Both the position numbers and the translations under genes were made by a program. From Liquidambar formosana (lineage: Eukaryota > Streptophyta > Magnoliopsida > Saxifragales > Altingiaceae): 64,000 nucleotides of DNA. Positions 4,350 to 46,640 of the stretch are shown piece by piece. The stretch is from assembly GCA_039720395.1 (NCBI GenBank), contig CM077823.1, positions 38,856,536-38,920,535 of the forward strand, read 5' to 3'. Under the pieces are notes generated by a model. The model was not told the DNA's origin. It worked only from the letters and a program-made list of their open reading frames with translations, and searched no databases. Position 1 is the stretch's first letter. Every line of letters starts with the position of its first letter.

Positions 4350-4560
4350 AATCGTCTCTTAACTTTTTTGGCTTATAAGTATATTTTAATATTTTCAAGT
4401 ATAATCTAACCACAAAAGAAATTAGCTTTATATAGATTGAGCGGTTAGGATTTAGGTGTGTCTCTTAACTTTATTAACTTGTAAGGGTATTTTAATATTT
4501 TCAAGTATAGTCTAACCACAAAAGAAATTGGCTTTATATAGATTGAGCGGTTAGCTTTTA
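4350..4560 (-). repeat. Tandem 106-bp duplication, Helitron 5'-end-like
   Basis: Two head-to-tail copies, starting near 4350 and 4456, share TAACCACAAAAGAAATT and CTTTATATAGATTGAGCGG. On the minus strand each contains TCTATATAAAG, which resembles the TC-start of plant Helitrons; compare the right end of the element at 44571-45044. A third partial unit begins at about 4560. Confidence 0.5.
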
Positions 4561-5220
4561 GGTGTATTTCGTAAAGATCATTGCTTAAATTCTTCGCAAT
4601 AATATTAATTTGGGTTTTAGGCCATATGAGATATTTCATACGGTCCTTACGATATTAATTTGGGTTAAAATCTTGACAAGAATGAAACTTAAGATAGATT
4701 AATAAAAAATAAATATATATATAATTAGGGGGTTTATTTTCACACCTTAGTTTTTTTGCCTGCATATGCACCTTTCCATAATCTATTTTCACATCCCTTC
4801 AACCTATGGAGAGATTACCATAGGGTTAATAAAAATCAATTGGGCCCAAGGTGCTATCAAAATAATCGTACAATCTCCAGTATTCTAGTCCATTGCCGGT
4901 GCTCCTCTTTCACACCAATGGTGTCCCAATGAAATACCATTTTTTTTTTTAATATGATTATTTTATAAAGATGGCAGTACATGACATCTATGACTCTACC
5001 TTCATTTAGTGCGCGTTCAACAAACTTTCTATGCTTTTTTTTTTCAAAAAATAAAAATTTATTTTATACTTTATCTCCCTTTTCTTATTACCTCAATCTC
5101 GTATCATTTGCACAAGTCAAGGATAAAGTCAATAATTTAGTTGGAGGGAGGTAAACTTTAGTTGATTGTTCGTATTTTATCTTAATTCAAAAAATTAAAG
5201 AATTTTTAGTTTAAAATTTT

Positions 5221-15851: not shown

Positions 15852-16069
15852 CCCTCCATTTGGTTCATGGATTCTATCAAGGAAAAAAAAAGGAAGGGAA
15901 AAAAAATGAGGAGGAAAGAAAATGAAAGGAAAAGATAAAATCATATCAAGCTAAAATTATACCAATTCTTCTTTTTCTTCCAATTTTCCATTGCAACCAA
16001 ATAAAGAAAAGTACAATTCCTTCTATTTTATTTTTTTTCCTTGATAAAATCCGCAAACCAAATAGAGCC
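15852..16069. mobile_element. Tourist-like MITE
   Basis: Ends CCCTCCATTTGGTTCATGG and (inverted) GGCTCTATTTGGTTTGCGG are diverged terminal inverted repeats, flanked by TTA on both sides (15849-15851, 16070-16072), the PIF/Harbinger target duplication. It inserted into or just beyond the copia gag relic. Confidence 0.65.
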
Positions 16070-16083
16070 TTAAAAAAAAAAAA

Positions 16084-16255
16084 GGGAAAAATAAATGAAG
16101 AGGAAAGAAAATAAAAAGAAAAGATAAAATCATATCAAGTCAAAATTATTCAAATTCTTTTTTTTCTTCCAATTTTCCATTGCAACTAAATAAAGAAAAA
16201 TACAATTCCTTATATTTTTTTTTTCATTGATAAAATCTGGAAACCAAATAGAGCC
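16084..16255. repeat. Second, partial tandem copy of the MITE
   Basis: About 170 bp that repeats 15896-16069 with a period of about 189 bp, including AAAGATAAAATCATATCAAG and the right terminus AACCAAATAGAGCC. It lacks the left terminal repeat, so it arose by tandem duplication, not by transposition. Confidence 0.7.
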
Positions 16256-20346: not shown

Positions 20347-20634
20347 TTAAAAGAAATCACACTTGCCTTTCAGAATAAAATATCCCACCCAAAAAACAAA
20401 AAACAAAGGTGTTAAGGGTTGGGCAGCCTCAAGATGCTTCCCCTAATAAATGAACGGCCGCCAGTCTGTGTTTTCGCCTCTAGTAGCCTTGTGCCACCTA
20501 CACACAATGCATTAAATTGTTCATTCTCTAGCCTTGTGCCACCATCTAATCCTGTTTTCTATCACCCACCTTCTGCTCAATACACCTTCTAGACACGCCG
20601 TTATGCTAGGATGGATACCACTAAGACATTCTAC

Positions 20635-21300
20635 GTTCATTTCGGGTCATCAAAATTAGTTTATTCAGCTACCCTCACAATTTGATTTGATTGTAATTTG
20701 ATTAGTTTCTGTACAAATCAATGAAAAATTTTATAAAATGATTGCTGGGAACTATTCCAAAATAATAACCGATCACATTTTATAGTAATTCGATTGTATT
20801 TTTTAATTTGTTATCATACAATGTGATTAAGTTATATTTATACCAATGACCACATGCATGCCATACAATGTCCTAAGAGTACCCATGAAAACAATGGTGT
20901 ACGAGCTAATCCATCATATTTTGTCATAACCTTATCAAAAATTTTAATTAGATTTTTACAAAAAAAAAAAAAAAAAATCAGTCACCACATGCGGTATGGT
21001 ATCCAAGGGTACCATAGTTGACTTGCAATGAAAGAAATTTATAAGAGTTTTGGACTTGGAAAGTCTAATTATATTCATATTGTATTCTTGGTATGCCTGT
21101 GGAGTTTATTGTTTTAAAACTAATCAGCAGAAAGGCTAGGTATTTATTTTTAATCATCTTATGTAAATCAATTTTATTTGCATTCAATTGCCAAAAATAT
21201 TTGTATTCTTTCCTTCAATTATTTTATCATTCCAACATCTATAGTATAGTATAGTATTATTATTTCTTTGGGGGTGCAAATTAGATACCTTCAGACTGGT
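20635..21300. repeat. Repeat W, copy 1
   Basis: This 0.67-kb non-coding segment is repeated in the same orientation at 26645-27385 with clear divergence and a roughly 90-bp length difference (extra at 27080-27170). It is older than the near-identical duplications nearby. No coding content. Confidence 0.8.
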
Positions 21301-21584
21301 GTTTACAACCAATTAAAAACTCTCCAAATTTACAACCAATTAACCCATTAAATGATCAAAACATTCCTAAATCTAATAGGACCCCTTTTTTCTTGGGGAA
21401 ATTAGCAATTACCTCTATTAGGAGACTGCTTTTAACCAAAACTCCACCATAAGGGTTTTTAACTCTATAACCCCTTTTTTAAAAGATTCTTTTACCATAA
21501 GGAAATCTGTTTTTTTTTTTAATTCCAACAATACCCTCCCATGATTTATGCTTTCCCCACGATCTATCTTTCCTTCCCATCATT

Positions 21585-23008
21585 ATCTCTATTTTTTTTT
21601 CTTCCCTTTTTTGGTTTTCATCTGCAACGTTTCTCCTCCCCTATCTCCTTCTCTTTCTCCTTCTCTTTCCCCAGGTATACCTTCTCCTTCCTGTCGAGCT
21701 CTTTTTTTTTTTTTTTTTTGGGAATATGCAGGAGTTTTTCCGACGACAATACTCGCGTGGCTGTAGAAGAAGAAGAAGAAAAATGGGAGGGGAGGCAAGG
21801 AAATCCGATGCATTGGTATGGAGGTGTAGAAGAAGAAGAATAAGAAGAATGGGAGGGGAGGCATTCGCTGGTATGGAGTTTCTCCGACCAACCGTCCCAC
21901 CACAAATGTCTTCTTCTTCTTCTTCTTCTTCCTTTTCTTCTCCAAACTCCAGATCTGTTCGTTGTTGTTTTTTTTTTTTTTTTTTTTTGGTGTGTGTGTC
22001 TTGGTTTGGGAAAGCTTATTAACCGTTTTTTTTAAATTATTCCAACAATATGATGATACTGTTGTACACTATATTCGTAATAGTACGAATGTTGTTTTTT
22101 TTTTTTTTTTTTTTTAATATAAAACAATATGTTGTTACTCTACAACTAACATTTTCAAGCAGTATGTATACTTTGAAATTCGTATTTTTTGTTTCAAAAA
22201 GTATGATAATAATGTCACCAATTGTTGGAATTTATATTTTAACAGTATGTTGATACTGTTGAACACTATTTTTTTATAACAGTTCCATTGTAATTGTTTT
22301 CTTTTAATATAAAACAATATGATGTTACTGTGCAACTAAAATTTTGTTTTGATACGTCTCTGTCAGCATTTTTTGTTCTACCAATAGTATGATGATATTG
22401 TGCTGTTTTTGTGCCATTTAGAAGGTGTAAATAGGCTGGGATTTTCTTTCCATAAAGTTGCTAGAAAAAATGTGGTTTAAATGCCTGATTTTTAGGTAAA
22501 ATAGGGTTCAAATCCCTAATTTTCGGATAGCAATAGTAAAGTGGCACGATAGTAAATAACAAGCAAGTTTAAAATCAGGGGCTTTTTAGTCCGTACGGGG
22601 TTAAAAGGGGTTTTTACAAAACTAATTCTTATTTAGGGCCTATTATAAAATGACTATTATACATAGGGGCTATGACCAAAATTCCCTTTTTTCTTTCTTG
22701 TAGGTTGTGAGAAATTAGTGGTCTTACCGTGGGCACGTGGCCCCTGTACAAAACTGCAATACCATAATGGACCGTGCATAAGCACGTGGTGATTAAGACG
22801 TGAGATAGCGCGGGTGGGGAGGGAAAAGATTTCTTATGATATGAATATATATATATATATATACTAGCTTTAGAACCCCTGCGTTGCACGGATTAATTTA
22901 TAAAAAATAATATTATTAGTAAATTAAAATTTTAATAGAACACTTATTCTCTAAAATAGTAAAATATATGTGTTAATATAATATGTCAATTAAATTGAAA
23001 AGATATAG
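21585..23008 (+). repeat. Repeat X, source copy
   Basis: A 1.42-kb segment nearly identical to 29603-30902. It contains a CTT/GAA-rich stretch (21600-21960), poly-T tracts and the 3' end of a Helitron (22864 onward). The Helitron continues unbroken to 24599 here but is cut in the other copy, so this is the template. No convincing gene: the open frames over the GAA/CTT tracts are low complexity on both strands. Confidence 0.85.
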
Positions 23009-24599
23009 ACAAAAATAAATAAAATAGTTTAACCAAAATAATCTTTGGTGTGATGTTAGCATAATATATTACACAAAATTTAATTAGATTCTCAAAAAAG
23101 ATAAATTATTTTGAAAAGCAATTAATTTAACGGTGGAAACTTGTAAAAAATGAAGGAACTGATACGTTGTGATATTTGGTGGAAAAATATTAAAATTTTC
23201 TAGAGCCTAACCCATCCCACTATCATGGTTTTAACATTTTGGTATATACCAAAGCAAATATAACCGTTAAAGGTGTCTCGAAATCCGACGGTGGAGATTA
23301 TAAAATGCATGATAATGATGAATCTTGGTCTTTCGTGAGGTTTTGAGTGAGTTTTACAAAGAGTGAAAAACCATGAGGAAAAATATCAAAAATATGTTTG
23401 AGATTAGAATATAAAAAAATGAGAGAAAGTATAGACTGAGAAAGAAAATAAGAGAAAAAGCCAAAAGAAGAAAAAAAAAAGAAAAAGTATAAATCTTTTC
23501 AACTTTATGTAATTAACCATATGGAAGAATTTTGATTAAAATAGTTTTTTTTTTTATTCGTGTCGGAAGCAAATCGGGAGAATCTGAAGATTCTGGCGGA
23601 TTGTGTTTTCTTTTTTAATCCTCCTTTCCTTTGTTTATCTCTCTTTTTAATTATGACTATTTATAGTTTTATACGTTTAATTTTTAGGAGGGGAAATGAA
23701 TAGGCATAAAGAAAACATAAAAATATAGTACAATCTATTAAGTTTAGGTTGAACATTATATAGTGTGCGTTTTTTAATCTTCCCACATAAAAGCAAAGAG
23801 ATATGCAATGAACACCAAACGTCAACTTACCTCCACCATGTGAGAAAGAGCAAGTAATACCAAAAAAAAAAAAAAAGAAAGAAGAAGAAAAAAGTGAGGA
23901 ATTTATCTTTTGGTGACCACTGCCCAACTTAATACCAAACAAAAAAAGTTAGTAATACTTTTGAAGTACTTATCAAGTCAATTTGTAGCAAGGTGACAGA
24001 CAAAATCTTTTGTGTGGTATTAAGTTGGAAAGTGATCACAAAAGTAGTTTGTAGTTTTCCTAGAAGTCACTAAAGTAACCTTTTAGAAAAATTACATTTT
24101 AGTGATTGCTTCCTAATTTAATACGAAACAATAGAGGTTAGTTGTCATTTTGCGCACATTGGTAGTTAATTTGTAATAAGTTGACAGATAATATCATTTT
24201 CTTGGAATTAGGTTGGAAAGCGTTACTAAAAGGTAATTTTACCAAAAAAGCTATCTCCCGCTGCCACTGCCCACTGTTTCAGCATGTGAGAGGGAGGGAA
24301 AAAAAATCCTATGTTGACACGTGGCAATAAAAAAATTACATTTTAGTGACTGCTTCCTAACTTAATACGGAAACAACGGAAGTTAGTTGTCATTTTGGCA
24401 CACATTGGTAGTCAATTTGTAATAGGTTGACACCTATATCCTTTTCTTGGAATTAGGTTGGAAAAGCGTTACTGAAAGGTAATTTTACCAAAAAAATTTC
24501 TCCCATTGCTACTGTTTCAGCATGTGAAAGAAAAAAAATAATAAAAAAAATCCTATATTAACACGTGGCACAAAAAGGTTCCCTTTCCTCCGTTTTAGA
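22864..24599 (-). mobile_element. Non-autonomous Helitron in a (TA)n array
   Basis: Read on the minus strand, the element starts TCTAAAACGGAGG (24599) and ends with the hairpin CCGTGCAACGCAGGGG, an 8-nt spacer and CTAG (22867-22864). It is bordered by A and T within TA repeats on both sides (22845-22863, 24600-24610). This is the Helitron signature: no inverted repeats, no target duplication, 3' hairpin plus CTRR, A|T target. No Rep/helicase gene is present. The A|T-in-TA setting makes the exact ends fairly secure. Confidence 0.75.
24085..24572. repeat. Two 244-bp tandem repeats inside the Helitron
   Basis: Units starting near 24085 and 24329 share ATTACATTTTAGTGA, GTTAGTTGTCATTTTG, TCTTGGAATTAGGTTGGAAA and an ACACGTGGCA end. 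A more diverged third unit precedes them (about 23890-24085). Confidence 0.75.
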
Positions 24600-24757
24600 T
24601 ATATATATATGCTGGAAAGAGAAGTCTTAATCTTTTGCGTGCAAGGCAGAGCAGTTATTTAATGCATGGCGTTTTTGGCGGCAGATTCGTACATGAAATC
24701 AGAGAGGATGGCTGAATGTTTCCATTTCGTATAATGATTAGGGAAGCACCTCAGCAG

Positions 24758-25958
24758 GGTCGGTCCTGAGTTTTTTGGGGCCCTACACGAACTCCTAAAA
24801 TGGGGCCAATAATTTTTTTTCCCTAATACATACAAAATTTGCCTAAATATTTGACTACTAAAATTTACTTATATAAATTAAGATAAAAAATAATCTTTAT
24901 AAGAATTATAAATAAATAAAATCTTATCTTCTTTCCTTATAATTTATAAAAAATGACATATACAAGAAGAAGAAGAAAAAAAAAACAAAATTTAAAGTTA
25001 TAATACCAAAAAGAAATGAACCAACTATAGCAAAGTATCACTTAAATATTACTCTTCTTGCATTGTTAGCTGCAAAATCACTTATTAAGTTAGCATAATC
25101 AAGCTTTTTTGCCATGTCATGTTCAATAGATAATATAGCTAATCCGGTCAATCTTTCCTGTGACATAGTAGAACGAAGGTAAGATTTGATCAACTTTAAC
25201 TTTGAAAAACTTATTTTTGCAAATGCAACTGTAACTGGTATGATCAACAATATTCTATAAGCAATCTAAGCATTTAGGAAACAACTGTCCATTTCTTTTA
25301 AATAATTCAGTACTTCAATTGGCCTTTTTAGATCTGTTGGTAAAACTTCTTCCAAGCCCTTTAATTCTAAAAATAAATCTCCCCCAAATAATATCAGAGT
25401 GCCCTTTATGTGTGTATATCTATATATATAGAGGAAAGAAAAAGTGAAGAAATTAATTAATGAAAGAGAGAATGGTTTGAACGTTTGGTGTACCTGACTT
25501 CTTTGTCTGAGAGGTAATCAAATACTTTTAATTTTCCAAATAGAATTCTGATCTGATCTGATCTAATTAGGATGGAGGTTGTGAGAGGTTGAGAGCACCA
25601 AGAGAGGAAAAGAGGAAGAGGTTGGAGTTTGGAGGCTCAAGGCAAACTGACAAAGACGTTAGATCTGTATTAGATCTGATCTGATTTAGGGTTAAATGTT
25701 TTTTTTTTTTTTTTTGGCTTGAGTTGAGTATATTATTTAGCCATTTGGATTATTGTACATGGACTTGGGTTAGAAACTTAGGAATTATTTGGGGCCCTTA
25801 AACTAGATTAGGGCCTTTTCTCATCTAGTTATTAAAATTTTTTTTTTTTTAAGACTTATTACGAAAGTAACAACTAAGTTGGGACCCTTATTTTTTGTCA
25901 AAATTTTGGGGCCTTAGGCGGTTGCCTAAGTGGCCTGACCTCAGGGCCTTTTCCCCCT
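24758..25958 (-). mobile_element. hAT transposon relic (ZMYM1-like)
   Basis: It encloses a transposase fragment (25038-25410, minus). Its edges carry related inverted sequence: CAGGGTCGGTCCTGAG on the left, and ACCTCAGGGCC near the right end. GGGGCC-rich subterminal blocks are present on both sides. The right terminus is decayed and no 8-bp duplication could be confirmed, so boundaries are approximate. Confidence 0.5.
25038..25410 (-). pseudogene. hAT (ZMYM1-type) transposase C-terminus
   Basis: Minus-strand reading gives DLFLELKGLEEVLP, MDSCFLNA, a stop (TAG near 25267), then IAYRILLIIPVTVAFAKISF, SKLKLIKSYLRSTM and LTGLAILSIEHDMAKKLDY. This is the conserved hAT dimerisation/C-terminal region of plant 'zinc finger MYM-type 1-like' transposases. 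The usual AERSFS is changed to AKISFS. Only the last 120 or so residues of a protein of about 700 residues remain. Confidence 0.8.
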
Positions 25959-25959
25959 A

Positions 25960-26640
25960 CATGGCTACTTTTGATTCTATATGCGTCCATCTGTCAAAAT
26001 CACTAAATATGCCTCTCACCATTCGATGATATTCATCACAATTTAAAGACCGACATGGCAACATCCTAAGGGTCAACATAATGCTCTTTTCCATGGGAGA
26101 ATATATATATATATATGTTAAATTCAAAATCTCGAATTAGATGGTAGTATTTTATTCACAATTTATATTCAATTTTAAATCTAATTTTCAAACTTTTAGG
26201 TTTTTGTGTAGCAACATTTGGAACGTTGAATATATGAAAATTTCAGACAAATGGTATTTATTTTTTTTTTCTTTTATGATTCATTATTGTATTTATATAA
26301 TGCATGTCATCATTGAGTAGCATTTTTTTTTTCTTTTTTTTTTCGCCAAGGCCATTTTTTGTTTCAATTATTACTATTATATTTAGTGAAAGGATACTGC
26401 TAGCTTGATGTTAATATGTTTACTCCTCCAGTTAACTAAGTTTCCTTCCCATCAAGTTCTTATATTAGGTTTCTAATTTAGTTAGACTACTAATTATGAC
26501 TTTTATAAATAATTAAGTCAAACCCAATATTCAAGCAGCTAGATTAGCCCTTAAGATTGTAAAAGACTTCGGTTGGATTGGATGCTTGATTGAAGGTGAT
26601 AGATGTCTATGGGAGTTTGAGGTCATTATAAATCTAATTT
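25960..26640. other. No gene; contains an inverted repeat fragment
   Basis: AT-rich sequence. Positions 26432-26530 are an inverted, diverged copy of 29087-29185 (TTGACTTAATTATTTATAAA… read in reverse). Confidence 0.5.
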
Positions 26641-26644
26641 CTTC

Positions 26645-27385
26645 GTTCATTTTGGGCCATCAAAATTAGTTTATTCTTTGTTGTTTGTGCCCCTACAATG
26701 ACCCTCACAATTTGATTAGTTCCTGTACTAATCAATGGGAAATTTTATAAAATGATACCCTGGGAACTATTCGGAAGTGATAACCGGTCACATTTTATAT
26801 TAATCCAATTATATTTTTTAATTTGTTATCATACAATGTGAGCAAGTTAAATTTTTAACAATAACCACATGCATGCCATAAAATATCCTAAGGGTGCCCA
26901 TGAAGAAATTGGTGTACCAGCTAATTAATCCATAATATTTTGTGATAACCTTATCACAAATTTTAATTAGATTTTTACAAAAAATGATCGGTCACCACAT
27001 GTGGTACAATACCCAAGGGAGCCATAGTTGACTTGCAATGAAAGAAATTTATAAGAGTTTTGAACTTGGAAAGTCTAATTATCCTCTTATAAACCTGACG
27101 AAAGCAACCTACATAATATGTGTCGTTAAAATGACCAGCCATGCAAAAGAGAAGAATATATATTTTTGTTCATATTGCATCCTTGGTATGTCTGTGAAAT
27201 CTATTGTTTTAAAACTAATCAGCAGAAAGGCTAAATATTTATTTTTAATCATTTTATGTAAATCAATTAAAATTATTTGCATTCAAAAATATTTGTGCTC
27301 TTCAATTATTTTATCATACCAACATCTATAGTATAGTATTTTTATTTCTATGGGGGGGAGGGGTTGCAAACACCTTCAGACTCGG
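26645..27385. repeat. Repeat W, copy 2
   Basis: Diverged direct copy of 20635-21300, ending near the 'ccttcagact' block. It carries an extra segment of about 90 bp at 27080-27170. Confidence 0.8.
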
Positions 27386-27489
27386 CGTGGGTGTCAGTGT
27401 CTGTGGGTCTACCAGACCTGGTGGGTGCTCTATGTTGTTCCCACTTCCCAGAGCCTAGACCCACCCTGGGAATTACCTCCATACCAACC

Positions 27490-27675
27490 TAGGCAGTAGG
27501 CACTCAGCCCAAAAAAGAGCGAACATCACCACGTCTCTCTCACAAACTTCACTTGGCCCTCTCCAAGGCTCCAACCCACCCAATCAGAATCAAGAGCATG
27601 GCACGTGTCACTTTTTAATTAAGTGTTTTAATTATAAATAATATTTTATATAAATTAAATGTGTCCAACCAGCAT
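27490..27675 (+). repeat. Repeat Y, left copy
   Basis: 186 bp, nearly identical to 30900-31085. Its left flank is unique; its right edge (AGCAT) is the first junction of the patchwork insertion. Part of it, 27630-27661, is copied again at 27716-27747. Confidence 0.85.
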
Positions 27676-27749
27676 GGATATTAACAACTCTTTCCATTTG
27701 AACATTGTCTTTCTCAATTATAAATAATATTTTATATAAATTAAATGCC

Positions 27750-28264
27750 TTTTTCCAATCGCCCATCAACAGAGAAACAACTCTTTCCATTTGAACATTG
27801 TCTTTCTCATCACGAGCCAAAGAAAGATCTTGTGCACTATTTACTGAAGCATGGATATTAACAAGCAGCCTTTGGGTAGAAGACAGTCTCGCCCCTTCCT
27901 TACCTGACTAATCAGATCCAATACTGCATGGACTTTTCATAGATTCAGCAAAGTATTTCCAACCTCTTCCAATGTGTCCTGAAATAGAAATACAATTGCT
28001 TCTACCATTATTAGTGATTTCAGTTAGACGCCCGAATCTTCCATTGATGAAGCTCTAGTAACAATGTACACTTACTGCTCCTAAACTTCCTAATCCATCC
28101 ATGATTAATGTTTCCATAGCCCAAATCTGAAAAGCTGTTATACAACCATACGCAACTGTCCTTATCAAAACCGATTGATATTCTCAGCCCTCTGCCATTT
28201 TCCGAAATTTTCAGAAAATCATCACCCATACCCAACAATACAAACTCAAAAGTTTTCTGTTCCA
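27750..28264 (-). pseudogene. Truncated DUF4283-family gene, N-terminal part (duplicate)
   Basis: From ATG 28264 the minus strand reads MEQKTFEFVLLGMGDDFLKI, then GFDKDSCVWLYNSF. In another frame follow ISGHIGRGWKYFAESM and …DEKDNVQMERVVSLLMGDW. Relative to the copy at 34260-35517 it has 4 extra bases near 28072 and the same internal TAG. It ends at the duplication breakpoint before the DUF4283 domain itself. No function is expected. Confidence 0.7.
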
Positions 28265-28772
28265 TCCTTAAGAACTTATTGGCCAAAAGGAAACTTACAG
28301 AGAAGTAAAAGAAAAGGAGAAGAAGAAGAGAAGATGGTAATATCAAAGAAGGAAGAGAAAAATGAATCAGTAGAAAAGTAAGAGAAGAATGAACAGCGGC
28401 CCTGGTTGAATCGTCAGGGAACGAGAAACAGCAGTGATGTAGCTTTTCCCCTCTCTCGCTCTCTCTCTCTCTCTCAAGTCCGATGGATAATTGGTCAACA
28501 GATTTATATTTTTCAATATATGTATTTAGTGGGCTAGCCATTTGGGATCTATATTTTGCAATGAGCCAATGTTACTCAAAGAAGCATTTAAAAACTGAGT
28601 TGTATTAGTAACTAGAAACCTTGTTGAATTAGGAAATCTAGCTAAAAGAAAAATTCATGGGGTAAAGCCTAATTAAATTAGAAACCTAGTTAATTTAGGA
28701 ACCAACTTCTCATAATTTGCACATGAGATTGCATGATGTGGAACGTGTTAGTAAGAAAAAGGAAAATTTGGA

Positions 28773-28952
28773 AAAAATCCCAAAGTGGTTGTTTCGAGTG
28801 GAGGTAAAAGATCCCGAGTTCGAGTCCCAATACTTTGGAAAAAATTCATGGGCTAGTGATTTACCATTGCCCACCCATTGTGACAGTGATTAGTCCCTTG
28901 GTTGTCAGCTTTGGGGATTCATTGGGTCAAAGACCCAAAAAAAAAAAAAAAA
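28773..28952 (+). mobile_element. tRNA-derived SINE (copy in repeat Z)
   Basis: B box GAGTTCGAGTCCC at about 28815 and a poly-A tail at 28937-28956, flanked by AAAAGGAAAATTTGGA and AAAAGGAAAATTGGA as target duplication. The A box is weak. The same SINE sits at 36014-36207, so insertion came before the duplication. Confidence 0.65.
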
Positions 28953-29602
28953 AAAAGGAAAATTGGATCTATTGGGGCCATTCTTTGTATGGGAATATTT
29001 TATTTCTTATAAGGGTATTTTAGTAATTTTCTTATAATTAAGGAATGGCCCAGCCTTACAGGCTTTATGTTTTTTGTATTGGCTTTGACTTAATTATTTA
29101 TAAAAGTCATAATTAGTAGCCTAGTTAAATTAGAAACCTAGTATAAGAACTTGATGGAAATGGAAACTTAGTTAATTTGAGGAGCAAGCATATTAGAACT
29201 CTATAAAGGGGATTGTAATAGCTCTAATAAGGGTAGAGTTTACAGAATAAAAGTTATTTTAAATTGAGTGTGGAACTCTTCTTTATGTTTTGAGTGTGCA
29301 TCATTGCAATAATCCCTAATAGGGATGCTGAGTGGTTTGTCTAATAAGCAATTAAAGTATAGAGTGAAACTCTTCTTTCGGTTTGATTGTGGTTCTCAAA
29401 CCCACCCTTGTGGATTAGGCTCTCTCTATCTCCTTCTCTCTCTCTCTCTCTTTCTCCTTGTGTGCTTATTTTTTTCTTTTAAAGGAACTCTTCGCAACAC
29501 CCTCCCAAGGCTCCAAAGTTCAACTTCCTTCGTCTAAAGCCATACTTTCATCACAAATCCTAAAGAAATCGTCTAAAATAAATATATTACTTTTATGACA
29601 TG

Positions 29603-29982
29603 ATCTCTATTTTTTTTTCTTCCCTTTTTTGGTTTTCATCTGCAATGTTTCTCCTCCCCTATCTCCTTCTCTTTCTCCTTCTCCTTCCCCAGGTATACCT
29701 TCTCCTTCCTGTCGAGCTCTTTTTTTTTTTTTTTGGGAATATGCAGGAGTTTTTCCGACGACAATACTCGCATGGCTGTAGAAGAAGAAGAAGAAAAATG
29801 GGAGGGGAGGCAAGGAAATCCGATGCACTGGTATGGAGGTGTAGAAGAAGAAGAATAAGAAGAATGGGAGGCATTCGCTAGTATGGAGTTTCTCCGACCA
29901 CCGTCCCACCACAAATGTCTTCTTCTTCTTCTTCTTCTTCTTCTTCCTTTTCTTCTCCAAACTCCAGATCTGTTCGTTGTTG

Positions 29983-30014
<32 letters not shown>

Positions 30015-30902
30015 ATAAAACAATATGTTGTTACTATACAACTAACATTTTCAAGCAGTATGTATACTTTGAAATTCGTATTTTTTGTTTCAAAAGGTAT
30101 GATAATAATGTCACCAATTGTTGGAATTTATATTTTAACAGTATATTGATACTGTTGAACACTATTTTTTTATAACAGTTCCATTGTAATTGTTTTTTTT
30201 TAATATAAAACAATATGATGTTACTATGCAACTAAAATTTTGTTTTGATACGTCTCTGTCAGCATTTTTTGTTCTACCAATAGTATGATGATACTGTGCT
30301 GTTTTTGTGCCATTTAGAAGGTGTAAATAGGCTAGGATTTTCTTTCCATAAAGTCGCTAGAAAAAATGGGGTTTAAATCCCTGATTTTTAGGTAAAATGG
30401 GGTTCAAATCCCTAATTTTCGGATAGCAATAGTAAAGTGGCACAATAGTAAATAACAAGCAAGTTTAAAATCAGGGGCTTTTTAGTCCGTACGGGGTTAA
30501 AAGGGGTTTTTACAAAACTAATTCTTATTTAGGGCCTATTATAAAATGACTCTTATACATAGGGGCTATGAACAAAATTCCCTTTTTTCTTTCTTGTAGG
30601 TTGTGAGAAATTAGTGGTCTTACCATAGGCACGTGGCCCCTGTACAAAACCGCAATACCATAATGGACCGTGCATAAGCGCATGGTGATTAAGACGTGAG
30701 ATAGCGCGGGTGGGGAGGGAAAAGATTTCTTATGATATGAATATATATATATATATACTAGCTTTAGAACCCCTGCATTGCACGGATTAATTTATAAAAA
30801 ATAACATTATTAGTAAATTAAAATTTTAATAGAACACTTATTCTCTAAAATAGTAAAATATATGTGTTAATATAATATGTCAATTAAATTGAAAAGATAT
30901 AG
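29603..30902 (+). repeat. Repeat X, derived copy
   Basis: Nearly identical to 21585-23008 but about 120 bp shorter, because one segment between two poly-T tracts (source 21966-22110) is missing. It ends inside the Helitron, whose 3' end (CTAG at 30758-30761) is present but whose body is cut at 30902. Confidence 0.85.
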
Positions 30903-31085
30903 GCAGTAGGCACTCAGCCCAAAAAAGAGCGAACATCACCCCGTCTCTCTCACAAACTTCACTTGGCCCTCTCCAAGGCTCCAACCCACCCAATCAGAAT
31001 CAAGAGCATGGCACATGTCACTTTTTAATTAAGTGTTTTAATTATAAATAATATTTTATATAAATCAAATGTGTCCAACCAGCAT
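30900..31085 (+). repeat. Repeat Y, right copy
   Basis: 186-bp match to 27490-27675, joined on the left to the cut Helitron through TAG and continuing on the right into unique sequence. Confidence 0.85.
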
Positions 31086-31089
31086 TGTA

Positions 31090-33495
31090 AAATCTAAATT
31101 ACGCAACCGATACCTATGGATTATAATTTGATTTTTTTCTTTTTAAAAAAAGTAAAAACGATAAAATTTTTGGAGTTCAGTATGGATTTTAGAGAGTAAA
31201 GATATGGGTAAGTCAAGCTTGATAAATAAATTTGAAACTTGAATTAAATCATTTGAGATATTTAATTTTACTTAATTTTGGATATATAGTATTTCTTTTT
31301 TTTTTTTTTTTTGAAAGTATTGTGTTAACCATAGAATGCTGGTCTTAAATAAAGATGAACATCATCCAACGGTGGAGGGAGTGAACCTTCTACGTCAGAC
31401 TATATTCTGACAACTGGGACTTATATGGAATAAAGGTAAGAAAAAGGCAGGGAGCCAGTAGGTGCTTTACCTAATCGTTCGAAGAAAACGAAACCATTCA
31501 GCCACTGTTCCTGATTTCACGCCATACGATCCTGCCCCCCAAAATCCCCATGCATTATTAAATGACTGCCTTTCTTCCAATGGCCTCCACCCAAAAAGAA
31601 GAGTAAGACCATTTGATTTGTCTTTTCGGTCTAATTTTTGGTCAAATCTCACTCACGTTATGGCACGCTCTATTCACATGTGCTGGATACAAAACTTTTG
31701 AAAGATAAAAACTAGGTTTACTATTATGATATTTAAAAATAATATACTAAATTAAGATGGAGAGAGAGTGCCATGGTGGGCAACTAAGGGACCATGACCC
31801 ATGGCTCTCTTCCTCATACCTCAATCTCTCTCTCTATCTCTCTCTCTCTCTCTACCTAAAATTAGTAAAAGGATGCTTAGCAATTTTTGTATATTTTTTT
31901 ATAAAATTTTATGAAATTTTAAAATTAATGGAAGGTGCTTAAAATTTTTTGTGATGGTAATAATCTCCCCCACATAAATTGAGACGAGAAAAATTGGACA
32001 TAGAATTAGAGTACTTTTTTGTTTTGTATGGTAAATTTTTATCCTATTATTTTTATTTATTTGTTTATTTATTTATTTTTGATAAACATGTACAATTAGG
32101 GAAATCCACGTAACATGAACACCACCAAGCAAAGGATATTTTTTAATCAATGTGATAACTCAGACCGTATATGTATATGTTTAAACTCTAAACCTAGCCC
32201 ATAATTCTTCATAGGACTATCCTCTCACTGCATTCCTCGAATAGCCAGCTAAAGGGATTTTCTTTTGTTCTTTTTCTGGGGATAAAAATGCATACAATAT
32301 TACAATTACATAATTTCAAAAGTGTACATAGCTTTTGGAGAGTTGAAAGGACGATCTTATATAGAAGAGCACACACACAACGTCCTGATGTGGGACAAAC
32401 ACATGGCAACTTTAAGGGTACTGACTCTTCGGAGCCAATATTTTTGCTTTAAACGTGGGGACAACTACTGGGAATGGCTTGTGAAGGGTTTTTTTTTTAG
32501 TTCAATTTTTTTTTTCTTTGATTGTTTTTATTATTATTTTTTGTTTGGGTAAACTGCACTTTAGAGTCCAAACTCTAAAGTTTAGATCAAGTTTTGTTTT
32601 AAAATCTAAAATTTAAATTGCACTAATTCAGTATCCAAATTATTAGTTGAATTACATTTTGAGAGCCTGCAATCAGAATTGTCTATATTATCCCATATTT
32701 TACCCGTTTGAAAACCCTATTTTATGTCAATTTAGTATTCGGATTATAAGTTTTTCTCTACGAAGAACCACAAGAGTTTGGGTATTGAGGTGGGGTTATA
32801 AGGTGGGTTATCTTATGAGTTAGCCTACGGTACGCCTACTTGGGAATGTACAAAGGAAAAAGGGATGAAATCTGTGAAGTTTTTGGCTTCCAGCTATCAA
32901 GGCAGTAGCTCAGTAAGGCAACCCGTGTAACAGATCTGCCATCAAGAGCCAAACTAGGGAATATGAAATTATGGGAGAGATCGAGCAAATAGTAGGAATT
33001 ATAGTAACATGGAGGAATTAATACACATTATATAATACTTATCCAAAAAATAATAATAATAATAATAAATACACATTATATAATCTATATGAAATGAATT
33101 ACGAGCAAAATATACTTAGTTGTAATTTATGTTTTAAGCAATTCTCACATTGTTTTCTTAAATGCAGCAAAGGGTTTCTCCATTGAAACAAATGGAGCAT
33201 AAAAATCATTGTTAATGTGATGCCTTCAGTTTGAAAACTGAAATGACTTTAACCCTAATAAAATATATGACTATCGCCGCAATGTGTTTCATGCTAGACA
33301 AAAATTTTAAATATTGGTCGAGTGGTATTACAATAGAAAACTTAGGAAATAAATATTGAATCTTCAAATTGAAGATAAAAATTAAAGATTTTATATATTG
33401 GGAATGGCATTATTTATAATTGACGTAGGGTCCGTTTGCTAGTGTTACAGCTAAATTTTTTTTAAGATACGAGTAATGCGTGATACGGTGCAGGT
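31090..33495. other. Long stretch without recognised gene
   Basis: AT-rich. CT microsatellite at 31828-31853, a (TAA)n run near 33050 and a MITE-like left end (GGGTAAACTGCACTTTAGAG) at 32548 related to 5221. Frames at 31462-31701 and 32322-32552 show no family resemblance. Confidence 0.35.
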
Positions 33496-33500
33496 CCAAG

Positions 33501-34255
33501 GTCTTAAATCCACAAGGTAAATCTAGCAATTAATTACAAATGGTGCAGGTCCTCAACAAACCAACATCCCCACCATCCACCCCTTCTTTCCCTTCTCGCT
33601 CTCAAAACACAAGATTCCTAATCAAAGCTTTCGTTCAGCTTCTGCAACCCTCCTCTTGAATTAACATAACCACTCCTCCCTAACCAAGAAGAAAATTCGG
33701 ATAAGCAATCAGTGTTGCAGAGAGAATACAAAATTAATTACAACAAATAATAATAAAATCACATCGTTTGCAAGAATTCTCCATCCAGGCTGGAAAGGTT
33801 AGCACACATTCCTCTGTATCTGCCATAGCAATGCTACTGATTCATCCAAACATTAAAAACATTTGAAAACCAACTGAAATTGCCAAAACATATAGATAGG
33901 CCAAATCAGTCCTACAACCATCTTTTGTACCAGAAATAGACGAGACAAGAAAACTAAACCATATGGACGCACTGGTAAGTTTAGAAATATTAGGAAAATA
34001 TATGCGTACATATGATCCAATTGATGATTGAAAAATTTTAAAAATAACCAAAAAAAAACAAAACAAAGAAACCAAGAATCAAACAATGCAAAATGAGTAC
34101 TTGAGATTTTGTAGTGGCCGGGGCCTAGGTTTACGTAGGGATGTATTTAAAACCTACGTGAATTAGTAATTAGAAACAGTGTCGAATTAGGAGACCTATC
34201 TAAATTAAAACTATAGTTTAACTAGGAACAAAGCTAATTAGACTTCTATGAAAGT
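33501..34255. repeat. Repeat T, copy 1
   Basis: Diverged direct copy of 45580-46125, sharing TGAAAACCAACTGAAATTGCC and TTTTGTAGTGGCCGGG. Copy 2 lacks about 230 bp present here. No gene; short frames across it are shadows. Confidence 0.75.
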
Positions 34256-34259
34256 CCTC

Positions 34260-35517
34260 ATGCTAGACTCACCAGCCAAAACACCAAACCCACCTTCTAC
34301 CACTTCTGAATTCCCACCACGGATACACCCTACACCCACTAATGCATCTTCAACCCCCCCTGCTGAGTGCACCAAAACTCTGTTCTACATCCCTCCTTCC
34401 TCCATGCCCTCCTCCCACCATTCCTCACAAAACAATGGTTGCCCTGCTTAATTCCTCTTGTATTATGAAACTCGCTACTTCCAGAAGGCAACAAACGATT
34501 AGGAACAGGCCAAACATGAACTAAAAATACACAACCAGCCAACTCGATTCTTAACAAACTTGGATTGAAACCAGCATGGAGTTCTCTAACTCTAAACTCT
34601 AACACAAGCTTGAAACAGACTATCCAGCCTCAAAAGTTATTTTTTATCAATCTCCACCAGACCTCCATAGTGCTCAGCAATTATAGAGAACACTTCTTCC
34701 CTCCATAAGTGAAAGGGTAATCCTTCTATGGCAATCCATTCACTTTTAGACATAAATTGAACGCCATGAATAGAATTAAAATTTGGATCCCATTTTCTTA
34801 AATTAACGACGACACTACTCTTAAGGAAGACTTCTCCCCAGAAAATAATTGGCTTTATCCATATTATGACAAAAAAAGACTGCCGTATTGCTCTGAAAAG
34901 GAGTTAGTACTCTATTGCATTCCAACAGCTTACGCAGTTCAATCTGAATGTTATACCAACTATCAATCACTTTCTCTCTCGATCACACTCTCACAAACAA
35001 ATGCCTTTTTCCAATCGCCTATCAACAGGGAAACAACTCTTTCCATTTGAACATTGTCTTTCTCATCACGAGCCAAAGAAAGATCTTGTGCACTATTTAC
35101 TGAAGCATGGATATTAACAAGCAGCCTTTGGGTAGAAGACAGTCTCGCCCCTTCCTTACCTGACTAATCAGATCCAATACTGCATGGACTTTTCATATAT
35201 TCAGCAAAGTATTTCCAACCTCTTCCAATGTGTCCTGAAATAGAAATACAATTGCTTCTACCATTATTAGTGATTTCAGTCAGACGCCCGAATCTTCCAT
35301 TGATGAAGCTCTAGTAACAATGTACGCTGCTCCTAAACTTCCTAACCCATCCATGATTAATGTTTCCATAGCCCAAATCTGAAAAGCTGTTATACAACCA
35401 TACGCAACTGTCCTTATCAAAACCGATTGATATTCTCAGTCCTCTGCCATTTTCCGAAATTTTCAGATAATCATCACCCATACCCAACAATGCAAACTCA
35501 AAAGTTTTCTGTTCCAT
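34260..35517 (-). pseudogene. DUF4283-family gene, broken (source copy)
   Basis: Minus strand from ATG 35517: MEQKTFEFALLGMGDDYLKI, GFDKDSCVWLYNSF, then (same frame after a TAG) NGRSNCISISGHIGRGWKYF, …LIGDWKKAFVCESV, and after a frame change VVVNLRKWDPNFNSIHGVQF and WIAIEGLPFHLWREEVFSII. The GLPFHLW block and the preceding VNLRKW are hallmarks of DUF4283, a domain found in plant retrotransposon ORF1-like proteins and in related host gene families. At least three in-frame stops and one frameshift are visible. The tail (34340-34600) reads …PVPNRLLPSGSSE but is not confidently placed. It is related to 61812-62946. Confidence 0.75.
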
Positions 35518-36177
35518 CCTTAAGAACTTATTGGCCATAAGGAAACTTACAGAGAAGTAAAAGAAAAGGAGAAGGAGAAGAGAAGATGGTAATATCAAAG
35601 AAGGAAGAGAAAAATGAATCAGTAGAAAAGTAAGAGAAGAATGAACAGCGGCCCTGGTTGAATCGTCAGGGAACGAGAAACAGCAGTGATGTAGCTTTTC
35701 CCCTCTCTCTCTCTCAAGTCCGATAGATAATTGGTCAACAGATTTATATTTTTCAATATATGTATTTTAGTGGGCCAGCCATTTGGGATCTATATTTTGC
35801 AATGAGCCAAGGTTACTCAAAGAAGCATTTAAAAACTGAGTTGTATAAGTAACTAGAAACCTTGTTGAATTAGGAAATCTAGCTAAAAGAAAAATTCATG
35901 GGGTAAAGCCTAATTAAATTAGAAACCTAGTTAATTTAGGAACCAACTTCTCATAATTTACACATGAGATTGCATGATGCGGAACGTGTTAGTAAGAAAA
36001 AGGAAAATTTGGAAAAAATCCCAAAGTGGTTGTTTCGAGTGGAGGTAAAAGATTCCGAGTTCGAGTCCCAATACTTTGGAAAAAATTCATGGGCTAGCAA
36101 TTTACCATAGCCCACCCGTTGTAACAGTAATTAGTCCCTTGGTTGTCAGCTTTGGGGATTCATTGGGTCAAAGACCC

Positions 36178-36210
<33 letters not shown>

Positions 36211-36859
36211 AAAATTGGATCTATTGGGGCCATTCTTTGTATGGGAATATTTTATTTCTTATAAGGGTATTTTAGTAATTTTCTTATAATTAAGGAATGG
36301 CCCAGCCTTACAGGCTTTATGTTTTTTGTATTGGGTTTGACTTAATTATTTATAAAAGTCATAATTAGTAGCCTAGTTAAATTAGAAACCTAGTATAAGA
36401 ACTTGATGGAAAGGGAAATTTAGTTAATTTGAGGAGCAAGCATATTAGAATTCTATAAAGGGGATTGTAATAGCTCTAATAAGGGTAGAGTTTACAGAAT
36501 AAAAGTTATTTTAAATTGAGTGTGGAACTCTTCTTTATGTTTTGAGTGTGCATCATTGCAATAATCTCTAATAGGGATGCTGAGTGGTTTGTCTAATAAG
36601 CAATTAAAGTATAGAGTGAAACTCTTCTTTCGGTTTGAGTTTGGTTCTCAAACCCACCCTTGTGGATTAGGCTCTCTCTATCTCCTTCTCTCTCTCTCTC
36701 TCTCTCTCTCCTTGTGTGCTTATTTTTTTCTTTTAAAGGAACTCTTCGCAACACCCTCCCAAGGCTCCAAAGTTCAACTTCCTTCGTCTAAAGCCATACT
36801 TTCATCACAAATCCTAAAGAAATCGTTTAAAATAAATATATTACTTTTATGACATGATC
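34999..36859 (+). repeat. Repeat Z, source copy
   Basis: Template of 27743-29605. The DUF4283 gene crosses its left edge unbroken and the right edge continues into sequence collinear with repeat T copy 2, so this is the original location. Confidence 0.85.
36014..36207 (+). mobile_element. tRNA-derived SINE (copy in repeat Z source)
   Basis: Same SINE as 28773-28952, with B box GAGTTCGAGTCCC and a longer poly-A tail (36178-36208). Flanked by GGAAAATTTGGA and GGAAAATTGGA. Confidence 0.65.
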
Positions 36860-37059
36860 CTGTAATAATTCCCTGGCTATTCCGAAAATAAACTTAAACC
36901 AAAAATATTATTTTTTTTCATATAAACCCTTGATTTCTCCTTCCCTTTCAAAAATTCAAAAGAAAACAAAGTTTTAGTCCACCTATACTTGTTTGTAGGC
37001 AACCTTATTCTCCACTTAATGAGATCAACTGCATCAAAGGTGCTGCCTCAAATTCTAGA

Positions 37060-45446: not shown

Positions 45447-45579
45447 AATCGGGAACAAAATACCACAGTATTTCGAGTTGTTCAGTTTGGAATAAAAGCC
45501 CTACATCAGCTCGACAGCTCACACTCGTACTAGAAACCCTGCCACCATAAATTTCAGTTGAAAATAGCACACATCCATA

Positions 45580-46640
45580 TTCTTAAATCCACAAGCTAAA
45601 TCTAGCAATTAATTAAAAACGACGCAGGTCTCCAACAAACAACATCCCGCCCATCCAGGCCGGAAGGTTAGAACACATTTCTCTGTATCTACCACAGCAA
45701 CGCAACTAATTCATGCAACATAAAAACAATTGAAAACCAACTGAAATTGCCAAAACAAATTGATGAGCCGAATCAGTCCAAGAACCATGTGAACACACCA
45801 GTAAGTTTAGAAATATTAGGGCAAGACCATGCCAATACATCATTAATAAGTAAAAATATATCCATACATACAATCCAATTGACGATCGAAAAATTCAAAG
45901 ATAACCAAAACAAACAACCCCCCCAAAAAAAAAAAAAAAAAAATCAAAAACATAGAAACAAACAATGCAAAAGGAAAACTACCTATGATTTTGTAGTGGC
46001 CGGGCCTAAGTTACATAGGGATGTATTTAAAACCTATTTGAATTGGTCATTAGAAACCTTGTTGAATTAGGAGACATATCCAAATTAAAAATATAGTTTT
46101 TACTAGGAACAAAGCTTATTAGAATTCTATAAATAGAATTACAATGATCCCAAACAGTGATGGTCAGTAATTTGGTTAATAATCAACTCAAGATGAGTTT
46201 GGATATTTTCCCTGTGTTCGAGTGTCTTGCTCAAACAAATTCTTGTGAATTAGGGGTCTCTATCTCACGTCATGCTCACAAGATTCACAGGTATTGTTCA
46301 CAGCCCCTTTCCATCCTAAACTTGGCCCCAAAGTTCAAACATACTTTCTTTCTAAAGCCTTACTTTTATCACAAACCCTAACCCCACTGCTCCACAAAAT
46401 TAAACTTGGCAAATTTGAACCCCTTGATTTCTAAAAGTACGGAAAGCTTTCACCGTAGTTTAAAGGTCATACTTAACCTTAAACTACAACAAAATCATCT
46501 ATTTTTTTCATGTAAAAGCATTGATATCTCCTTCCCTTCCCAAAAAAACTAAGCACAACAAAGTCATAGACTCGTAGCCAACATATTTTTGTTCATAGGC
46601 AACCTTACTGTCCACTTTAAAGGCCATGTAAATTGGTTTT
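45580..46640. repeat. Repeat T, copy 2 (uninterrupted form)
   Basis: 45580-46125 matches 33501-34255 and 46100-46640 matches about 36440-37060, in order. It therefore looks like the version without the 2.2-kb DUF4283-containing block. Diverged; no gene. Confidence 0.65.

Follow-up and report, generated by a model that had tools for sequence, protein, structure and literature searches.

A block of local copies in Liquidambar formosana as the probable scar of serial template switching

Most inferences of serial template switching come from rearrangements in human disease and from induced breaks, and patch-mediated or staggered-break tandem duplications were reportedly described by Vaughn and Bennetzen in 2014. 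Here we analyse a 3.4-kb block (27490..31085) in the genome of Liquidambar formosana, located in a 64,000-nucleotide stretch (the window) of contig CM077823.1 (assembly GCA_039720395.1, positions 38,856,536 to 38,920,535), which is a patchwork of local copies and probably arose in one repair event that copied nearby templates in series. Features of this kind in human complex insertions and chromoanasynthesis are assigned, in passages of PMC5120786, to fork stalling and template switching or microhomology-mediated break-induced replication (FoSTeS/MMBIR). In plants, patchwork filler has been published for maize (passages of PMC3014980), and the passages of PMC10923293 on Arabidopsis fillers read them as serial extension and release, in agreement with the mechanism proposed below. 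Published work already covers tandem duplications and fillers as well as serial template switching (rice, maize and barley); the process is known, and it is the record at this locus that is unusually complete and readable. A literature search on Liquidambar, which was not designed to prove absence, listed no title about such a block.

Composition of the block and its templates

The block consists of Y1, three small pieces, Z', X' and Y2, all on the plus strand and in the same orientation, which confirms what a preliminary description of the window had observed. Y1 (27490..27675) and Y2 (30900..31085), the left and right copies of a 186-bp flanking direct repeat, are 98.4% identical and form a direct duplication at the site, as repair of a staggered break would leave. 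Template tracing resolved the small pieces at 27671..27687 (with a tied 7-bp stretch), 27683..27716 and 27716..27747, the third being copied from Y (27630-27661) with the join AAATG (5 bp). They are followed by Z' (27743..29605), a copy of 34999-36859 with 33 mismatches in 1844 aligned positions, and by X' (29603..30902), a copy of 21585-23008 without 119 bp that lie between poly-T tracts in the template, with 26 mismatches in 1254 positions aligned outside the poly-T zone. The joins of X' are ATC and TAG (3 bp each). Y1 and Y2 differ at 27656/31066, where the filler carries the Y1 base. The pieces are what iterative copying of several templates, as in FoSTeS/MMBIR, would leave, and X (21585..23008, plus strand) and Z (34999..36859, plus strand) appear to sit in older context, as templates that stayed in place would; an origin of the block by tandem duplication would remove this agreement.

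The 717,955,123-base assembly (370 contigs) was searched for these segments, and the candidates scored were the best 40 of 2829 for X, the best 40 of 738 for Z and all of those for Y (8/8 and 3/3); repeat counts are lower bounds, and block segment 30600-30905 lay outside the search results. Among the matches listed, Y occurs at two places genome-wide, plus the small piece within the block. Full-length Z also occurs at two places among the best 40 of 738, its template being the only full-length match to Z' listed besides Z' itself, and the remaining matches are inner repeats. For X, the local match is the only nearly full one among the best 40 of 2829, at 97 and 95% in its two parts; beyond the window, the best match longer than 100 bp is a partial one of 92%, with higher scores for some pieces of 29-43 bp. 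No genome-wide match listed provides a better template than the local X, Y and Z, and none of the best 40 of 2829 repeats the joined Z'-X' block. The earlier proposal that the parts derive from nearby templates in one orientation is borne out; all lie within about 12 kb and all are direct.

The six joins share 5, 5, 1, 5, 3 and 3 bp (22 bp in total), compared with a mean of 0.73 shared bases for random joins between the same regions (P = 0.0004 under a null permitting near-identical offsets and 0.00002 with those offsets excluded). Under the latter null, P is 0.0013 for joins 3-6 (12 bp), 0.0007 for joins 4-6 (11 bp) and 0.018 for joins 5-6 alone (6 bp). Microhomology, which had been proposed from inspection of the joins, is above chance in sum, with one join of the six falling short. 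X, Y and Z are equally diverged between copies (~1.9%), as expected from the similar closeness to sources noted before. The divergence test suggested at that time cannot separate a single event from a tandem duplication followed by two deletions, because X, Y and Z should be equally diverged under the latter too. When 20 differences in X were polarised by our own 3-to-1 rule, eight fell on the block side and six on the template side, with six undecided; mutation-prone copying was rejected, given that the block side has no clear excess.

The X template starts inside a dispersed repeat (21386..22696, plus strand) of ~1.3 kb with many genome copies, those fetched being 78-90% similar over the main match. 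Its limits were obtained by comparing 20 family copies hand-picked from 107 matches: 16 of them, unlike the other four, extend left through 21585 (15 to 21386-21399 and one to 21472). In all 20 the right end falls at 22683-22710. X' starts ~190 bp inside this element and runs ~310 bp beyond its end. An element boundary at the left end of X', where many matches begin at query 2110, was considered and rejected because this position is merely where X' begins, while the family reaches left to ~21386. An older collinear homology (~61%) between 36555-37017 and 46138-46617 flanks both sides of the right limit of Z at 36859; stricter scoring splits it into 36763-36817 and 36889-37017, the bases at the limit aligning poorly. 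With caution, and considering this poor alignment for Z, X and Z appear to sit in older context within which X' and Z' are cut off. The claim that no piece begins or ends at an element boundary holds for X; for Z, it is reduced to the dispersed repeats seen being internal. A possible transfer RNA (tRNA)-derived short interspersed element (SINE), judged by eye from a tRNA-like box, a poly-A tract and possible short direct repeats, lies within Z' (28760-28970) and Z (36001-36210). The window, SINE candidate included, contains neither an Rfam match at gathering threshold nor a tRNA match.

A probable single repair event and its rivals

From these pieces we infer one event, probably a repair in which local templates were copied in series. 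A break would have left 3' ends staggered by ~186 nt at Y, and the left 3' end (AGCAT, 27675) would have annealed to Z via microhomology. Successive extensions of only 12, 29 and 31 nt, each followed by release, would then have copied Z, Z again and the exposed Y of the other end, before re-invasion of Z allowed 1.86 kb to be copied. A switch to X would have added 1.3-1.4 kb, the 119 bp between poly-T tracts being lost then or later, TAG would have joined the X copy to the other end where Y starts, and fill-in of both Y overhangs would have produced the 186-bp direct repeat. The order of the tracts suggests growth from left to right, with unstable and then processive synthesis, because the 12-, 29- and 31-nt extensions stand at the left and the two kilobase tracts come after them. 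A staggered break with 3' ends would also explain why the switches begin at the right end of Y, why the final one leads back to the left end of Y and why one small piece comes from Y. In agreement with this, passages of PMC8355091 report that duplications made by polymerase theta in mouse cover nearly the entire 3' overhang.

A stalled or collapsed fork that resumed 186 bp upstream (FoSTeS/MMBIR) would be an equally good start, and a decision between break and fork is beyond what sequence alone can give. Of the earlier assignment to FoSTeS/MMBIR, the microhomology and the several templates in series stand; the preference for a stalled fork does not follow, since repair of a staggered break gives an identical product. 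A search at Y for inverted repeats that could have caused a break showed nothing striking. No paralogous copy covers the site: the old duplicate of the left flank ends at 27382/21297 without reaching across Y, and paralogs 220-290 kb upstream on the same contig match from ~31270 onward only. The chances appear evenly balanced that the block is a single germ-line chromoanasynthesis-like event in an angiosperm whose full itinerary can still be read, namely seven segments linked by six switches, with three short extensions that aborted before two kilobase tracts.

Several points weigh against a single event of this kind. Both long pieces keep their orientation, with Z downstream and X upstream of Y and joined in that order, an arrangement that we estimate at about 1 in 16 under free switching and that a tandem duplication would force. 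Short flank-derived filler made via microhomology, as by polymerase theta, is confined to pieces 1-3, and the insert as a whole, with tracts of 1.86 and 1.30 kb, surpasses the usual size of polymerase-theta filler (tracts above 1 kb do so). Join 3, with its single shared base, is no evidence taken alone. Moreover, the 186-nt stagger exceeds the ~50-nt overhangs in the cited mouse passages, according to which most wild-type duplications need CST and end-joining and not polymerase theta (PMC8355091), and in the rice passages of PMC7971508 tandem duplications are down to 5% of events by 200 bp.

The strongest alternative, possible but rather unlikely in our opinion, is a head-to-tail duplication of 21585-36859 (11,865 bp when the block is left out), after which each copy suffered one deletion. 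The duplication junction would be the join of the Z end with the X start (ATC); a deletion in the left copy would have taken out the 3,913 bp that separate Y from Z, with the flanks supplying the filler, and one in the right copy the 4,481 bp that separate X from Y (TAG), leaving X..Y, filler, Z', X' and Y..Z. This history forces the direct orientation, the order Y-Z-X-Y and the positions of Z downstream and X upstream, all of which are observed. It also predicts the equal divergence of X, Y and Z; the polarised differences in X are balanced, the filler templates lie within 121 bp of where the supposed left deletion starts and stops, a pattern that ordinary end-joining fillers also show, and perfect tandem duplications of up to 4.9 kb are among the rice insertions in passages of PMC7971508. 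On the other hand, it takes three events instead of one, and two independent kilobase-scale deletions have to fit within a mere 1.9% of copy divergence and to end, in different copies, at most 186 bp apart, which simulation with fixed deletion lengths gave at 0.011-0.022, or at 0.052 if sequence may not vanish from both copies. The view of one event as the simplest explanation fits the equal divergence and falls short of being established, because the same order and orientation result from this duplication with one deletion per copy. Our preference for a single event is a judgement that no result settles.

Separate insertions at the same place, Z' then X' or the reverse, are improbable: either piece alone would resemble a known local templated insertion, but their equal divergence speaks against two events, and the second would have had to hit the Z'/Y boundary exactly, without a duplication of its own. 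Still less credible is an assembly artefact in which haplotypes or repeats were mis-joined; heterozygosity of ~2% is possible in a tree, but an artefact is made unlikely by the ~2% divergence of the copies from their templates, in which either side carries changes, assemblers seldom produce 17-33 bp pieces with microhomology, and the contig measures 44.4 Mb. Least of all do we expect transposition or a long terminal repeat (LTR)-like element with Y as terminal repeats, since a 98% direct repeat of 186 bp around 3.2 kb has the outline of an LTR pair but Y starts with TA and ends with AT instead of the TG..CA usual for LTR retrotransposons, X' crosses element limits and the best 40 of 2829 matches hold no second joined block. 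At the block, tests for a target-site duplication (slack of up to 3 bp), for terminal inverted repeats at the insert ends (3/12 bases match) and for a Pfam family in the longest open frame (E 0.001) were negative, and X is not cut at element ends, all of which upholds the earlier rejection of transposition. In other parts of the window, open frames have Pfam matches to reverse transcriptase, copia gag, FAR1 and kinase families.

Older duplications around the locus

Further duplications are present in the neighbourhood. An older direct duplication, 20629-21297 / 26639-27382 (79-82%), found only at these two places among the genome matches listed, has copies that end ~90 bp before the X repeat and 108 bp before Y; the locus seems to have been duplicated locally before. 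An old collinear homology links 33495-37017 with 45574-46617 (61-85%), with a ~2.3-kb interruption in the first copy. Its main part is offset by 11.87 kb (the first 85 bp by 12.08 kb); whether or not by chance, this is close to the length of 21585-36859 less the block (11,865 bp). Simple tandem duplications at 4354-4574, 15884-16255 and 24084-24576 have offsets of ~106, 188 and 244 bp (82-89%), near the size class attributed in print to staggered-break repair. Finally, 31269-31677 shows ~70% similarity to three sites that lie 220-290 kb further upstream on this contig, which suggests an older segmental or gene-cluster duplication.

Comparison with known systems

As a natural plant case with traced templates and no transposon, the block would illustrate how a single step can rearrange non-coding DNA and, if it truly is a single chromoanasynthesis-like event, it would make the direction of synthesis and its change from unstable to processive visible in natural sequence. 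It also carries two warnings: in outline such a block could pass for an LTR element, and what looks like a template-switching scar can be a tandem duplication that has decayed.

Judged by the passages of the respective sources, the block combines features of several described systems. Like human FoSTeS/MMBIR insertions (PMC5120786), it shows serial templates, microhomology, templated insertions at joins and copy-number gain; unlike them, it is of kilobase scale, all direct, contained within about 12 kb and located in a plant. With staggered-break duplications in rice (PMC7971508) and mouse (PMC8355091) it shares a short direct duplication (186 bp here), apparently with nothing missing at the site, and microhomology at the ends of the duplicated part, but its two copies stand apart by 3.2 kb of multi-template filler. 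Short near-end pieces, serial microhomology and a patchwork structure are common to polymerase-theta insertions and plant filler (PMC10923293, PMC3014980), from which the block differs by two tracts above 1 kb and, in the single-event reading, by nothing being deleted at the target. A further comparison from a plant genome is the filler of the synthesis-dependent strand annealing type at barley cultivar indels, where non-homologous copies are inferred at repaired breaks (PMC3706897); whereas those barley passages leave the fillers untraced to templates, the pieces of the Liquidambar block are traced.
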